IMG/VR virus record: IMGVR_UViG_3300025383_000051
Span: 1 to 37,843 of that record
Direction: 5' to 3' (one strand)
Origin: a virus
DNA: 37,843 bases
Made by a program: the position numbers and the translations under genes. Below the pieces are notes generated by a model. That model did not search any database and had not been told where the DNA came from. It was given only the letters and a program-made list of their open reading frames with translations. This document shows, piece after piece, positions 8,311-33,499 of the stretch (position 1 is the first letter of the stretch; each line of letters starts with the position of its first letter).

Positions 8311-8585
8311 ATTAGATCAAATTGCGTTCCGAGTCTCCTTTCGAGTTCCTCTAATGTGTATGTGTTTGCTGCCAGGTTCAAAAGTTCAGCTTTCATCGAT
8401 CTTACAAGACTGCCTTCTGCCATCGGAGTCTTTTCATCGTAGCCCAGGTCTCGCATCGTCCTACGCAGGATTGAAATGTCAGTTGGGGTAGCGTGATTCT
8501 TGATGAAGGTCTCAACATCGCTTACTGTAACTGTAATGTCGACTTCTACGTCTTCAGACAATGTCATTTTGCCGTTTTTTTCCAT
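8307..8585 (-). CDS. Hypothetical small acidic protein
   Basis: 92 residues starting MEKNGKMTLSED. It has a short beta strand (VEVDITVTVSDVETFI) followed by helical segments (TDISILRRTMRDLGYDE and YTLEELERRLG). No family recognised. It lies between the HAD gene (which ends at 8587) and the 275-residue gene, overlapping the latter by an ATGA. Confidence 0.6.
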   Translation of the reverse strand: MEKNGKMTLSEDVEVDITVTVSDVETFIKNHATPTDISILRRTMRDLGYDEKTPMAEGSLVRSMKAELLNLAANTYTLEELERRLGTQFDLI

Positions 8586-29075: not shown

Positions 29076-29522
29076 ATGATACAAGTCAAGTCATATTCAG
29101 ACTTCATATTAGAATCGGCTAACCGTTCATTAGGGTACCGAAGAAACCTTGCTGAGAATCCGAACACGCCAGCCAAAGCTCTACAGAAGCTAGCGGAAGA
29201 CCTGGACCCTGGTGTAAGATGGTACGTCGCTGAGAATCCTAACACGCCAGTCGACGCTCTACAAAAGCTAGCAGAGGACCCTGAAGTTGAAGTGAGAGAA
29301 GGAGTCGCCCGAAATCCTAGCACTCCAAAGGAGACTCTACAGAAGCTAGCAGAGGACCCTGATTCGGACGTGCGATGGGACGTCGCCGGGAACCCCAAAG
29401 CGCCTATCGAGACTCTACTCCAGTTGGCAAAGGATCCGGACTCTGATGTGAGGCGAGAGGCTAAAAATCACAAAAACTATCCTAATAATCTTGCCGACTT
29501 TCTAAAGTTCGACTGGCAATAA
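29076..29522 (+). CDS. Capsid-targeted LRV-repeat protein (copy B)
   Basis: 148 residues. MIQVKSYSDFILE-S matches copy A at 24493-24858 (M-x-x-V-K-S-Y-x-x-F-x-L-E-S). Five LRV repeats follow, such as LAENPNTPAKALQKLAEDLD and VARNPSTPKETLQKLAEDPD. The repeats are nearly identical in DNA as well (the complement of GAGAATCCNAACACGCCAG recurs), so repeat number may change easily. It is presumably packed in the head and binds a protein target. Confidence 0.8.
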   Translation: MIQVKSYSDFILESANRSLGYRRNLAENPNTPAKALQKLAEDLDPGVRWYVAENPNTPVDALQKLAEDPEVEVREGVARNPSTPKETLQKLAEDPDSDVRWDVAGNPKAPIETLLQLAKDPDSDVRREAKNHKNYPNNLADFLKFDWQ

Positions 29523-29925: not shown

Positions 29926-30750
29926 ATGTACCTAGAAGGAGTAATCATCTGTGTCAACTATTCAGACTTTCTTGCACACACTCTTCCCCATAACAAAATA
30001 CATTTTGATAGGTTAGTCATAGTCACTGACACTAAAGACGTTAGGACTAAGAAGCTTTGCGAATATTATCACGTTGAGTGCATACAAACTGATGAATTCT
30101 ACCGAGGAGGCAATCGATTTAACAAGGGTGCCGGCATAAATGTTGGCCTTGCAGCTCTTTCTAAAAGAGACTGGGTGTTACACCTCGATGCAGACATGTA
30201 CTTACCACCGCTCACTAGATCAATACTTAATAACTTGCCTTTACAAAAAGACAAGGTGTATGGAGCAGATCGTCTCATGTGTCCTTCATATTCTGAGTGG
30301 ATGAAATTTATGGACTCACCTCCAAAGATCCAGGAAGCCTGGATCTACATACACTTGACGGCTTTTCCGATAGGAGTCAGAATTGCCGAATATGCAAACC
30401 TGCATGCAGGCTACGAGCCGATAGGCTTCTTTCAATTGTGGAATCCAGAAGGATCTGGAGTATTTGATTATCCAGACGAGCACGGATACGCCGATCGAAC
30501 CGACGTGTTACATATAAAGAGGTTTCCTAGAGAAAGAAGAGAGCTCCTACCTGAAATAGTGACAATTCACCTCGATTCAGAAGGACTTGGAGTAGCTGAA
30601 ATGGGTAAGAACTGGAACGGTAGGGAGACTGCGATATTTGGATACGATAACCGCGACTATTCCAAGTCTTGGACAAGGAGACAGATTGACAAGATCGTCT
30701 CAATTAAGAGGAGGTTGAGGTCGCCTCTTCATCACTGGCTCGGTCTTTAA
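29926..30750 (+). CDS. GT-A-fold glycosyltransferase
   Basis: 274 residues. FDRLVIVTDTKDVRTKKLCE and the LHLDADMYLP motif (D-x-D, metal and nucleotide-sugar binding) are typical GT-A features. GAGINVGLAALSKRDWVLHL precedes it, and WNPEGSG and YPDEHGYADR loops follow. Phage glycosyltransferases modify phage DNA bases or host surface sugars. There is no membrane segment. Its 3' end overlaps the uvsW fragment end on the other strand by 47 nt. Target unknown. Confidence 0.75.
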   Translation: MYLEGVIICVNYSDFLAHTLPHNKIHFDRLVIVTDTKDVRTKKLCEYYHVECIQTDEFYRGGNRFNKGAGINVGLAALSKRDWVLHLDADMYLPPLTRSILNNLPLQKDKVYGADRLMCPSYSEWMKFMDSPPKIQEAWIYIHLTAFPIGVRIAEYANLHAGYEPIGFFQLWNPEGSGVFDYPDEHGYADRTDVLHIKRFPRERRELLPEIVTIHLDSEGLGVAEMGKNWNGRETAIFGYDNRDYSKSWTRRQIDKIVSIKRRLRSPLHHWLGL

Positions 30751-31073
30751 GCTTAGTCAAATTTATGTCACGTTTTGAGATCTCAAAGTTTTGCTCCACA
30801 TAGATCTCTTCCCTTTCCTTTGAGTGCTTTACCATGTAACCGTCAAGCTGATCTACAAGATCCCAAATCACCACCTTAAACTTTTCAGCAAGCTTACGCA
30901 TGCCTCGGCCAATCGACTGTCTGATCGTGATCTCGGCTTTAGTCGATTCTGCAAAAATGATGTGATGCACATTTTTAAGATCGATCCCTGTACTGAAGGT
31001 GCCGTCCTCAATAGGAGGCAACGATAATCGTTGCCTCCTCTTTGCCCTCCTTTATTGATGTTGGTTTTGCCAT
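30704..31073 (-). pseudogene. uvsW: UvsW helicase, C-terminal fragment with frame break
   Basis: It starts at ATG 31073 with MAKPTSIKEGKEEATIIVAS and Tyr, then meets TGA (31010-31008). The next frame continues GTFSTGIDLKNVHHIIFAES and IRQSIGRGMRKLAEKFKVVI, the motif V and VI region of UvsW. T4 UvsW reads VASFGTFSTG here, so both parts belong to one helicase. They are separated by 7 extra nt (31010-31004), or a +1 shift giving VASY-ED-GTF. A perfect 27-nt palindrome (31013-31039) lies just before the break. Either a pseudogene, a recoded gene or a sequence error. Confidence 0.75.
31013..31039. repeat. Perfect 13-1-13 palindrome inside uvsW
   Basis: AGGAGGCAACGAT, one A, then its exact reverse complement. 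It lies within the codons for EEATIIVAS of helicase motif V and ends next to the frame break. It could act as a recoding hairpin or as part of the recognition site of the neighbouring HNH nuclease. Confidence 0.8.
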
Positions 31074-31075
31074 AT

Positions 31076-32041
31076 TCAATTTATTTTTTTAAATGTCCAG
31101 CCTATTGTGTTCTGAACTTGTTTATTTTTTAAATAGTTTGAAGAAACCGGTTTTCCAGAATTTGTAAATTTTCTAACCAATGACGGAGAAAAATCAAACT
31201 CCCGTATCATTTCAATTAGTCCATCTCGATAATATGTTTCTCCAGTAGGTGAAATTATTTCAAGCTTTTGTAGATACTTTTTTCTGGACTTCATTTTTTC
31301 TTTAAAGTTATTATCTTCCCACTTATTTTTTAATTTTAAGCTTATTTTTTTCCTAATTTCGGGAGAACTTAATGTTTCCGTTATTTTTGCTTTAAATTTT
31401 TCTCTATCTTCAATTGATTTATTATCCCAATACTTTTTAGACCTAATTGACAGTTTACCTGGATTATTTTTTATCCATTCTGATATTTTCTTTGACTGGT
31501 GCAATTTGCGATCATCTGTCCATGAGTTTTTAGCAGAATTACAGAAATTCAAATATTGTGAGGTATTTGATTTAATTGATTTCCAAGCAGCTTGGCCGCG
31601 CTTCTTATGTTCATCAGTTGATGCATTAATCATATGATTGCGTCTAGCTTCTTTAAATTTTTCAAATTTTTCAGTATTCGATTTCAATTTTTTCCAACCA
31701 AAAATTGAAGCAGATGATATTAGCTCAGTATTTTTATTTAGTGGACTTTTCATGAAATTTAAAGTTCTCTGATTTTGTCTAGTCGGATATGCTTTAAATA
31801 ATAACTCATGAGCTATTATATGGTTTGAGTATGTTAAGTTTACAATATTCCACTCGCAATTAATAAATTCACTAAATGCTGCTCGAGGTAAAATATGGTG
31901 CTTTTCGCAATATTCAGTAGAGTCAAACTGTGAAACTTTTTCAAAAACAAATGAAATATAATTAGATAGTGCATCATCGGATTGAGGTTTCCCGCACTTT
32001 TCTATAAATAAATTAAAAATTATTTGAATTTGAGAACACAT
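31076..32041 (-). CDS. HNH homing endonuclease with NUMOD-like repeats
   Basis: 321 residues. The HNH core reads CEKHHILPRAAFSEF...CEWNIVNLTYSNHIIAH, with His, Asn and His ligands. The C-terminal two thirds are basic and contain NUMOD3-like DNA-binding segments (SPEIRKKISLKLKNKW) and a final RDGLIEMIREFDFSPSLVRK helix-turn-helix-like NUMOD. The gene is clearly more AT-rich than its neighbours, showing foreign origin. It sits between the two uvsW fragments, 18 nt after the first and 3 nt before the second. It would cut intact uvsW alleles to spread the insertion. Confidence 0.85.
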   Translation of the reverse strand: MCSQIQIIFNLFIEKCGKPQSDDALSNYISFVFEKVSQFDSTEYCEKHHILPRAAFSEFINCEWNIVNLTYSNHIIAHELLFKAYPTRQNQRTLNFMKSPLNKNTELISSASIFGWKKLKSNTEKFEKFKEARRNHMINASTDEHKKRGQAAWKSIKSNTSQYLNFCNSAKNSWTDDRKLHQSKKISEWIKNNPGKLSIRSKKYWDNKSIEDREKFKAKITETLSSPEIRKKISLKLKNKWEDNNFKEKMKSRKKYLQKLEIISPTGETYYRDGLIEMIREFDFSPSLVRKFTNSGKPVSSNYLKNKQVQNTIGWTFKKIN

Positions 32042-32059
32042 ATTGAATAGGTATACATT

Positions 32060-33499
32060 TTAATTATTTATTTTATGTTCTAAAATCCAGGAATCTAATA
32101 TATCATCTTCATGAGTTACATCTTTTGCTTTCTTTAGCGTACCGTTAGTCAATGGAATCATATCACTAGACAAAACTGATACTTTAGTTTCATTAAACGT
32201 AAATTCAATATTATAATTTAATTCTTCCATTATGGCTTTATACTGGTCCCTGATCTCAGATTCAACTTCGCCGTCTATGTAAAAAGTGTTTAGATTCCAC
32301 TTAAGGAGTCTCTCCTGTATCTTACGACCGTATCCGTTTTTAACATCGGAAAATAGGATCAGGGTATTTTTACCAAGCCCCTTTACGAGGGTATTGATGA
32401 ATTCAAGTCTCTCCTTGCTTTCGAACAAATAATTACGCTCAATTGAGAGCATCTCACGGCCATAGTCCTTTGCGCTGTTATACATCTCAATGCCTTCCTT
32501 CTTTAGCTTCCAATACTGCTGAAGGTATGGATCGCTCCTGTCATAGTGTAAGTTTAGTATCTTTATTAGGACGTTTGGCGAATAGCCATGATCTATTAAG
32601 TGCTTCGCCGAAAGAGTCATGACCAGGGGGCCGACGTTTTCCTGGATTCTAAAAAAGTCAGAGTATTCTTCGTCAATTTTTGCAGTTCCAGAAAGTCCCA
32701 AGCGATACTGCCAGTTTGAGCTGTTGATTAATATCTCCCTAATCACATTGCCTCGAGATTTGTGCACTTCGTCCACACAGACGACGCTAAACTGCTTAAA
32801 GAAGCCCTTATCCATGTTCTGCAGGCTTTGATAGGTAGAGATGACGACTTCGCTCTCATCAAAAGTCTTTTGATTGAATTTATTATCTCCTCCGATTGAG
32901 CACACCTTCCATGGAGTCTTGCCGACTGAATAAAGTTCAAATTTTTCGGCAGTCTGACCTACTAGTGATACGTTAGGCACGATTATCAGTGATTTTGCCT
33001 TTGAATTTATCTTACGACCGTCCCTTAGAAAAGAATTGAATATGTAGAAGATGAGAGTCTTACCGGCAGAGGTAGCAAGTTCCTGGGTTGAGAACTTATA
33101 CTGAATGGCACGGTACGCGCCCTCAACTTGATAGTCCCTAGGAGTGATCGGCTTTCCGTGTTCGTCGACTACTCCACTCAGTAGTGAGTTTACGTATTTT
33201 AGGTAGGCTTCACGATTGAGTCCCAGATTTAAGATTGAGTCTAAGCCTTCAATTTCACAGTCATGTCCGTGAGTAGCCGCAAAGTTGTAGATCTCCTTCC
33301 ATAGTCCGACTGCAATGACACCTTCTTTGGTGATAAATGGATCTTTACCGTCCCATACTCCTCGGTCTACTAGCACATTGAACTTTGCTTTCTTTGACTT
33401 ACGCTTGAAAAACGAAAAAAGCTCAATTCTTTCTGAATTGAGGTCGTAGTCAGTTAAAAGTATGGATTTCTGGTCCTTTGAGAGTTTAAACTTTAGCAA
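32060..33499 (-). CDS. uvsW: UvsW helicase, N-terminal part with intein-like tail
   Basis: 479 residues. Helicase motifs are Walker A ATSAGKT (142-148), DEVH box VCVDEVHKS (241-249) and LSGTAKID, then the start of domain 2 (TLILFSDVKNGYGRKIQERL, TFYIDGEVESEIRDQYKAIM) up to about residue 426. The last 53 residues are AT-rich and unrelated to UvsW. They include SVLSSDMIPLTNGTLKKAKD, resembling the start of Ser-type inteins (S-x-L-x-x-x-x-x-P-L-x-x-N-G). UvsW unwinds recombination intermediates and origin R-loops. The rest of the protein is encoded at 30704-31073. Confidence 0.85.
   Translation of the reverse strand: MLKFKLSKDQKSILLTDYDLNSERIELFSFFKRKSKKAKFNVLVDRGVWDGKDPFITKEGVIAVGLWKEIYNFAATHGHDCEIEGLDSILNLGLNREAYLKYVNSLLSGVVDEHGKPITPRDYQVEGAYRAIQYKFSTQELATSAGKTLIFYIFNSFLRDGRKINSKAKSLIIVPNVSLVGQTAEKFELYSVGKTPWKVCSIGGDNKFNQKTFDESEVVISTYQSLQNMDKGFFKQFSVVCVDEVHKSRGNVIREILINSSNWQYRLGLSGTAKIDEEYSDFFRIQENVGPLVMTLSAKHLIDHGYSPNVLIKILNLHYDRSDPYLQQYWKLKKEGIEMYNSAKDYGREMLSIERNYLFESKERLEFINTLVKGLGKNTLILFSDVKNGYGRKIQERLLKWNLNTFYIDGEVESEIRDQYKAIMEELNYNIEFTFNETKVSVLSSDMIPLTNGTLKKAKDVTHEDDILDSWILEHKINN

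Follow-up and report, generated by a model that had tools for sequence, protein, structure and literature searches.

A uvsW helicase gene fractured by a mobile HNH cassette, with a conserved junction that suggests a short ribosomal hop across a stop codon

The locus and its intact relatives

We describe here a helicase gene, uvsW, that is broken in two in the virus record IMGVR_UViG_3300025383_000051, a 37.8-kb stretch (37,843 nucleotides, nt; the window below) with T4-like genes that include UvsW, DNA polymerase and portal and a weak match to UvsY. On the minus strand the N-terminal part of the gene (N-part), extended by a tail of 53 residues, is followed by an HNH gene, a leader of 21 codons and then the C-terminal part (C-part) from helicase motif V onward. 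The features are, in order of reading:

32222–33499, minus strand: UvsW helicase N-part, residues 1–426, domain 1 and most of domain 2, matched to UvsW by tblastn, hidden Markov model (HMM) and AlphaFold2 (AF2) model
32060–32221, minus strand: probable Hint-derived C-terminal tail, 53 aa and stop, fused to the N-part, from tail HMM, hhalign and AF2
31076–32041, minus strand: HNH homing-endonuclease-like gene, 321 aa, with HHILP...N...H, from a PHROG match
31011–31073, minus strand: leader open reading frame (ORF) MAKPTSIKEGKEEATIIVASY, putative beginning of the C-part polypeptide, recoding the strand before motif V, seen in 19 junctions
31014–31038, minus strand: predicted RNA hairpin GGAGGCAACGA-UUA-UCGUUGCCUCC, 11 bp, directly 5′ of the TAT codon, from covariation
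31004–31010, minus strand: 7-nt insert TGAGGAC, with stop TGA and proposed landing codon GAC (31006–31004), not in intact relatives
30704–31003, minus strand: UvsW C-part, GTFSTGIDLK..., motifs V and VI, 99 aa and stop, in the +1 frame relative to the leader

An initial annotation, made from the sequence alone, had placed the break at this position around an HNH gene of 321 aa, and the ORFs bear this out. It had ended the N-part at about residue 426; homology with UvsW does end at residues 425–428 of the 479-aa N-part ORF (33499–32060, tail included), where the alignment of most intact relatives also stops, and the AF2 model aligns over residues 1–428 to T4 UvsW (2OCA). The 53 residues that it had called foreign and AT-rich, 427–479, are extra compared with intact UvsW and have a GC content of 25%, compared with 42% for the core of the N-part and 29% for the HNH gene. 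Its treatment of the C-part as an ORF of its own did not survive, because the strand preceding the C-part is encoded by the leader in another frame; the leader, hairpin, stop and frame jump at 31073–31003 had gone unnoticed.

The split arrangement was found again in other contigs, among them L001 and L004, with 64–71% identity in the N-part including the tail and 44–74% in the HNH protein. Because the whole arrangement recurs in this way and a close relative, L002, carries the gene uninterrupted, chance is excluded as its source, and an assembly error in the window was ruled out since many independent contigs carry the same break. Intact IMG/VR homologues read without interruption through ...MEAQEDVIIVASF-GTFSTGID... 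at this point. L002 represents the empty site of L001, with DNA identity of 92% and 95% on the two sides; homology between the two breaks off close to where the N-part ends and returns exactly at the GGA of GTF, so that the inserted block consists of the tail, HNH gene, leader, hairpin and stop insert. This comparison, of a kind that the initial annotation had proposed, also shows that the tail is not normal UvsW sequence and that the block exchanged the host codons for VIIVASF for its own version. That uvsW has been fractured by an HNH mobile cassette is established. No second uvsW was present in nine records examined, three of them of 151–208 kb, although records may be incomplete.

The junction: leader, stop and hairpin

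The leader runs from an ATG at 31073 to a TAT codon (31013–31011), which is followed at once by TGA. It supplies the missing helicase strand, EATIIVASY, in a frame other than that of the C-part, and GTFSTGID... follows 7 nt beyond the Tyr codon, shifted to the +1 frame; the C-part of the window lacks a sensibly placed start codon of its own. Ratios of nonsynonymous to synonymous substitution rates (dN/dS), in relatives where they could be computed, were 0.03–0.34 for the leader and 0.03–0.10 for the C-part, and the tail gave 0.17–0.31 in relatives. All three are under purifying selection.

Nineteen distinct junctions of this kind were gathered by HNH-based and pattern-based scans, in UvsW proteins down to about 30% identical. 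Scans after the first fixed TGA and lengths of 4 or 7 nt, while L038, L047 and L049 came from unbiased HNH scans. L050 was left out as having the same tail and HNH gene but a broken helicase. Every leader has 19–26 residues, begins with MK, MAK or MAR and ends in A-(x)n-VAS-Tyr with an immediate stop, so that in 19/19 a stop directly follows the would-be take-off codon; the sequences on either side are coding and under selection. Tyr stands before the stop in all of them, although many intact relatives have Phe there. The insert before GGN is TGAC (4 nt) in ten junctions, TGAGNNY (7 nt) in eight and TAGTAA (6 nt) in one, L049, where frame 0 is kept. All 4-nt inserts are TGAC and all 7-nt inserts are TGAGNNY, and under this rule a GAC is never encountered too early. 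Within a single clade four inserts occur (TGAC, TGAGAAC, TGAGGAC and TGAGTAC), all following the rule. A Phe version of the junction pattern gave no real match and one unrelated one, and a search of bacterial genomes with the pattern gave two matches, both unrelated. Pattern matches in L115, L119–L121, L128, L139 and L140 were rejected as lying in unrelated genes. No cultured phage carrying the stop insert was found; the gene of C48C1 is intact.

A stem of about 9–12 bp ending 0–1 nt 5′ of the Tyr codon can be drawn in every junction. Covariation was assessed in an alignment of the stem arms in which N stood in for the loop (A4); an earlier alignment (A3) was discarded, its loop gaps having been wrongly placed by MAFFT. 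All 148 of 148 cells were paired, with double changes at four pairs among 15 distinct sequences, and the covariation score of 0.413 compared with 0.192 ± 0.023 in shuffles, none of 500 of which reached it; the signal vanished when the pairing partner was slid. The hairpin also beat synonymous recodings in 19/19, each time lying in the lowest 1% of energies (p ≤ 0.01). In intact relatives energies scattered around zero, with 2/19 reaching a z near −3, and none of three split relatives without the stop had the hairpin. As judged from these sequences, the 5′ side of the take-off codon carries a conserved, covarying hairpin with a putative stimulatory effect.

The tail of the N-part

An HMM built from 12 tails matched genuine UvsW split N-inteins, those of L142 (E 5e-7), L152 (1e-5) and L038 (about 1e-4), over a range of 5e-7 to 3e-4, with the matches falling on the second half of these N-inteins, which themselves exceed the Pfam Hint cut-off. 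The check for Hint similarity called for by the initial annotation therefore came out positive: the tail aligns to columns 55–95 of real UvsW N-inteins (hhalign probability 89%, E 2.3e-6). Its AF2 model has a predicted local distance difference test (pLDDT) value of 86, and structure matches are mostly inteins (VidaL, TM 0.60; VIA, Z up to 4.5; Foldseek), with 8YO3 (T4 topo II) also among the Foldseek matches. A Pfam search of the tails gave no Hint match, and the tail profile against PDB sequences gave only Ataxin AXH at E 0.1–0.4. None of 16 aligned tails has the block A Cys or Ser nucleophile or the block B TxxH histidine, and splicing by the known route would thus be impossible. The tail is well supported as a Hint remnant that corresponds to the second half of an N-intein and would be intein-derived and non-splicing. 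The initial suggestion of a Ser-type intein start has consequently to be given up. A role as a docking module for the two helicase halves is likely, because the tail is under the selection noted above and was kept after loss of the HNH gene.

At other positions, the UvsW of relatives carries genuine split inteins. In L038, L142, L152 and L017 the gene is also fractured at Walker B, between VDE and CH, by a split N-intein with a CLHP... start and TGNH, followed by a C-intein where the locus contains one (in L038 ending ...HNYIANGISVSN directly before CHKARG). In L038 an unrelated endonuclease-like ORF lies between the intein halves, and uvsW there is interrupted at two places by elements of different types. 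The uvsW of L050 (1140–2420) combines a C-intein, the tail and the HNH gene, with the intervening helicase either deleted or misassembled. At 8552–9247 of L004 the DNA polymerase ends in an N-intein-like domain (TGDH), which makes a second fractured gene in that genome.

The HNH gene and mobility of the cassette

The HNH ORF (32041–31076) matched a PHROG HNH endonuclease at E 1e-18, with no HNH match in a Pfam scan, and it is distantly related to Mob-type endonucleases found in T4-like phages. The tail, leader and insert are near-identical, with two substitutions, in L038 (the same as L045) and L144, although L144 has a large deletion in the HNH gene and the flanks have diverged to a proportion of synonymous differences (pS) of 0.64–0.69. 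Because it is near-identical between two otherwise diverged phages, the cassette is mobile. Identity between these two ends on the right 17 nt past the first base of the Tyr codon, and this edge suggests that the endonuclease cuts near the insert. As the mobile block ends sharply on the right with the insert, the latter probably destroys the target of the endonuclease and would so shield the carrier. The HNH gene is gone in L116, L137, L145 and L146 (8–138 nt left between the halves; 8 nt in L137 and 17 nt in L146) and gutted in L144, and all five of these loci still keep the tail, leader, hairpin and stop.

How the second half may be read

The patterns detected make recoding across the stop likely, and the best explanation of the whole, which we consider fairly probable, is a mobile cassette giving two chains and a bypass of 4–7 nt. 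The cassette lies in uvsW exactly ahead of motif V, and the helicase would be made as two polypeptides, the first being the N-part with its tail. The second would begin at the leader ATG, pass the hairpin and reach the Tyr codon UAU, where the ribosome meets UGA and, with its peptidyl-tRNA-Tyr, may hop 7 nt forward (4 or 6 in relatives) to land on a partly matching codon, GAC here and NAY generally, and resume at GGC. The predicted product, ...VASY-GTFSTGID..., equals the sequence of the intact protein. By analogy with the 5′ stem-loop motor of T4 gene 60, refolding of the hairpin behind the ribosome may pull it forward, and the two chains would then assemble without covalent joining. The codon before GGN pairs with tRNA-Tyr at all three positions in two junctions (UAU to UAU in L138 and UAU to UAC in L116), at two of three in 16 and at one in L117, and pairing just before resumption is better than in almost any intermediate register.

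An alternative explanation could be a programmed +1 frameshift like that of release factor 2 (RF2), in which UAU or UAC slips over the U of UGA to read GAN under stimulation by the hairpin, adding D or E-X before GTF. The inserts give +1 in 18/19 and UGA is present in 18/19, the 4-nt class has the TGAC context found in RF2, and a 5′ stem-loop is on record as able to stimulate +1 shifting (PMC5009743). A frameshift cannot account for TAGTAA in L049, where the frame is unchanged, and it does not predict that 4-nt inserts are TGAC while 7-nt inserts are TGAG..Y. Slippage from UAU to AUU or from UAC to ACU would re-pair at only one of three positions, and in place of an RF2-type Shine-Dalgarno sequence 3 nt upstream there is a hairpin arm directly 5′ of TAY. 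Because of landing-codon pairing in 18/19, the exact product, frame 0 in L049 and the poor +1 re-pairing, we favor bypass over frameshifting with reasonable though limited confidence, and regard the frameshift as unlikely. Several points weigh against the bypass: landing pairing is at two of three positions in most junctions and one of three in L117, the +1 inserts in all but L049 would also be explained by frameshifting, insert lengths are biased since later searches fixed TGA and 4- and 7-nt patterns, and the lineages are not independent, such that 19 exceeds the true number of events. It is also conceivable, but improbable, that there is no recoding: the leader would end at its stop and the C-part would be initiated separately from an internal codon, such as the in-frame TTG (LPPIEDGTF...), or else the helicase would be dead. 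An in-frame TTG (GUUGCC) is present in most junctions and hairpins are common near start sites. That TTG, however, results from the Val-Ala coding and sits inside the stem, a start there would lose the IIVAS strand, and L049, L137, L138 and L143 have no ATG, GTG or TTG before motif V; purifying selection on both leader and C-part and the failure to find a second uvsW in the nine records likewise speak against this reading.

Two further possibilities concern joining of the halves by splicing. A functional split intein with degenerate motifs could join the chains, and both the Hint-related tail and the real split inteins in UvsW of relatives are in its favor; yet the tails lack the splicing residues described above, and no C-intein with a terminal HN was seen in the 16 tails, nor one ending in HN before Cys, Ser or Thr in the leaders of the 19 junctions, which makes this very improbable. 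The initial annotation had noted the missing C-intein correctly, and of its comparison with split-intein fractured genes the fracture of uvsW and an intein-related tail stand, while splicing does not. It had also considered an intron. Such an intron, of group I or another type and containing an HNH ORF, was proposed by the LIMEstone authors for their uvsW, where I-LimI is tabulated as a uvsW intron (PMC3296691). We consider this the least probable reading of all, given that Rfam searches for a group I or II intron core had no match in the window region or 11 relatives, the halves are separated by so few nucleotides in L137 and L146, the C-parts of LIMEstone and Vibrio phages have their own ATG, and the tails are conserved as protein.

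If the bypass and the docking role are real, a selfish gene would travel with a recoding signal and a protein glue of its own. This suggests how homing endonucleases could invade essential genes without killing: the target is recoded, a re-joining tail is added and the ribosome skips the scar. We lean, somewhat more tentatively, toward a widespread family of short stop-hops (4–7 nt) with a conserved 5′ hairpin and tRNA-Tyr, carried in a mobile cassette with an intein-derived docking tail. To our knowledge, efficient bypassing by bacterial ribosomes has had almost no model other than T4 gene 60, and 19 natural variants in insert length, loop and landing codon would allow tests of hop length, landing rules and the hairpin motor. 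Published annotations of introns or split genes, as in LIMEstone and Vibrio phages, may need re-reading.

Comparison with known systems

The closest parallel is T4 gene 39–mobA–gene 60, where a gene for an HNH endonuclease divides an essential replication gene and recoding occurs at the start of the downstream half, with a take-off codon followed by a stop and a 5′ stem-loop (PMC5009743). The hop there is 50 nt rather than 4–7 nt, and the present system differs in its Tyr take-off, imperfect landing codon and gene. A 2016 review gives the stem-loop motor model for gene 60 and notes that shorter natural counterparts have long been presumed (PMC5009743). T4 gp39 itself ends in a 40-residue tail (EWFTFELNGDTIIVNENDEVQINGKW...; L157 3781–3900), which is kept in Aes516 (L159), lacking in most gp39 matches and in the same register as the Hint-like uvsW tails. 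Sequence similarity between the gp39 and uvsW tails was not significant (E 2.7); in the 39/mobA/60 split, the gp39 tail may play a docking part like that proposed for uvsW. Gene 60 of Aeromonas phage Aes516 has an annotated 17-nt bypass (L159 3685–3701), a third gap length beside the 50 of T4. In Aeromonas phage Asswx_1 the topoisomerase large subunit is a single ORF with stretches resembling the gp39 tail and gp60 leader in its middle (L160 2612–2750), possibly a healed split.

In Aeromonas phage Aeh1 (nrdA-a/mobE/nrdA-b) a core gene is likewise split by an HNH gene, and the halves are reported to form active enzyme (review PMC2988022), but the gene and insertion are different and no stop, hairpin or hop is known. 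Genes fractured by split inteins resemble the present case in that the halves flank a homing endonuclease and that the uvsW tail appears derived from an N-intein half; the difference is that residues needed for splicing are missing here from both tail and leader. Dickeya phage LIMEstone1 uvsW/I-LimI (ORF122–124), tabulated as a putative intron (PMC3296691), shares the split point, tail, HNH gene and an MKPTK-type leader, but the LIMEstone phages have neither stop insert nor hairpin. The Vibrio phage D506 group (58 records) has the same split point, tail and MKPTK-type leader without HNH gene, stop or hairpin. The byps of Magnusiomyces capitatus mitochondria are short inserts that are hopped with two-of-three landing pairing, although these are mitochondrial, occur at 81 sites, have no reported link to this cassette and are reported to be independent of mRNA context (PMC5009743).

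A neighboring gene

On the plus strand at 29076–29522, the window encodes a small protein built of almost perfect repeats (ENPNTPxxALQKLAEDPDxxVRWxVA), which resemble leucine-rich-repeat-variant domains.

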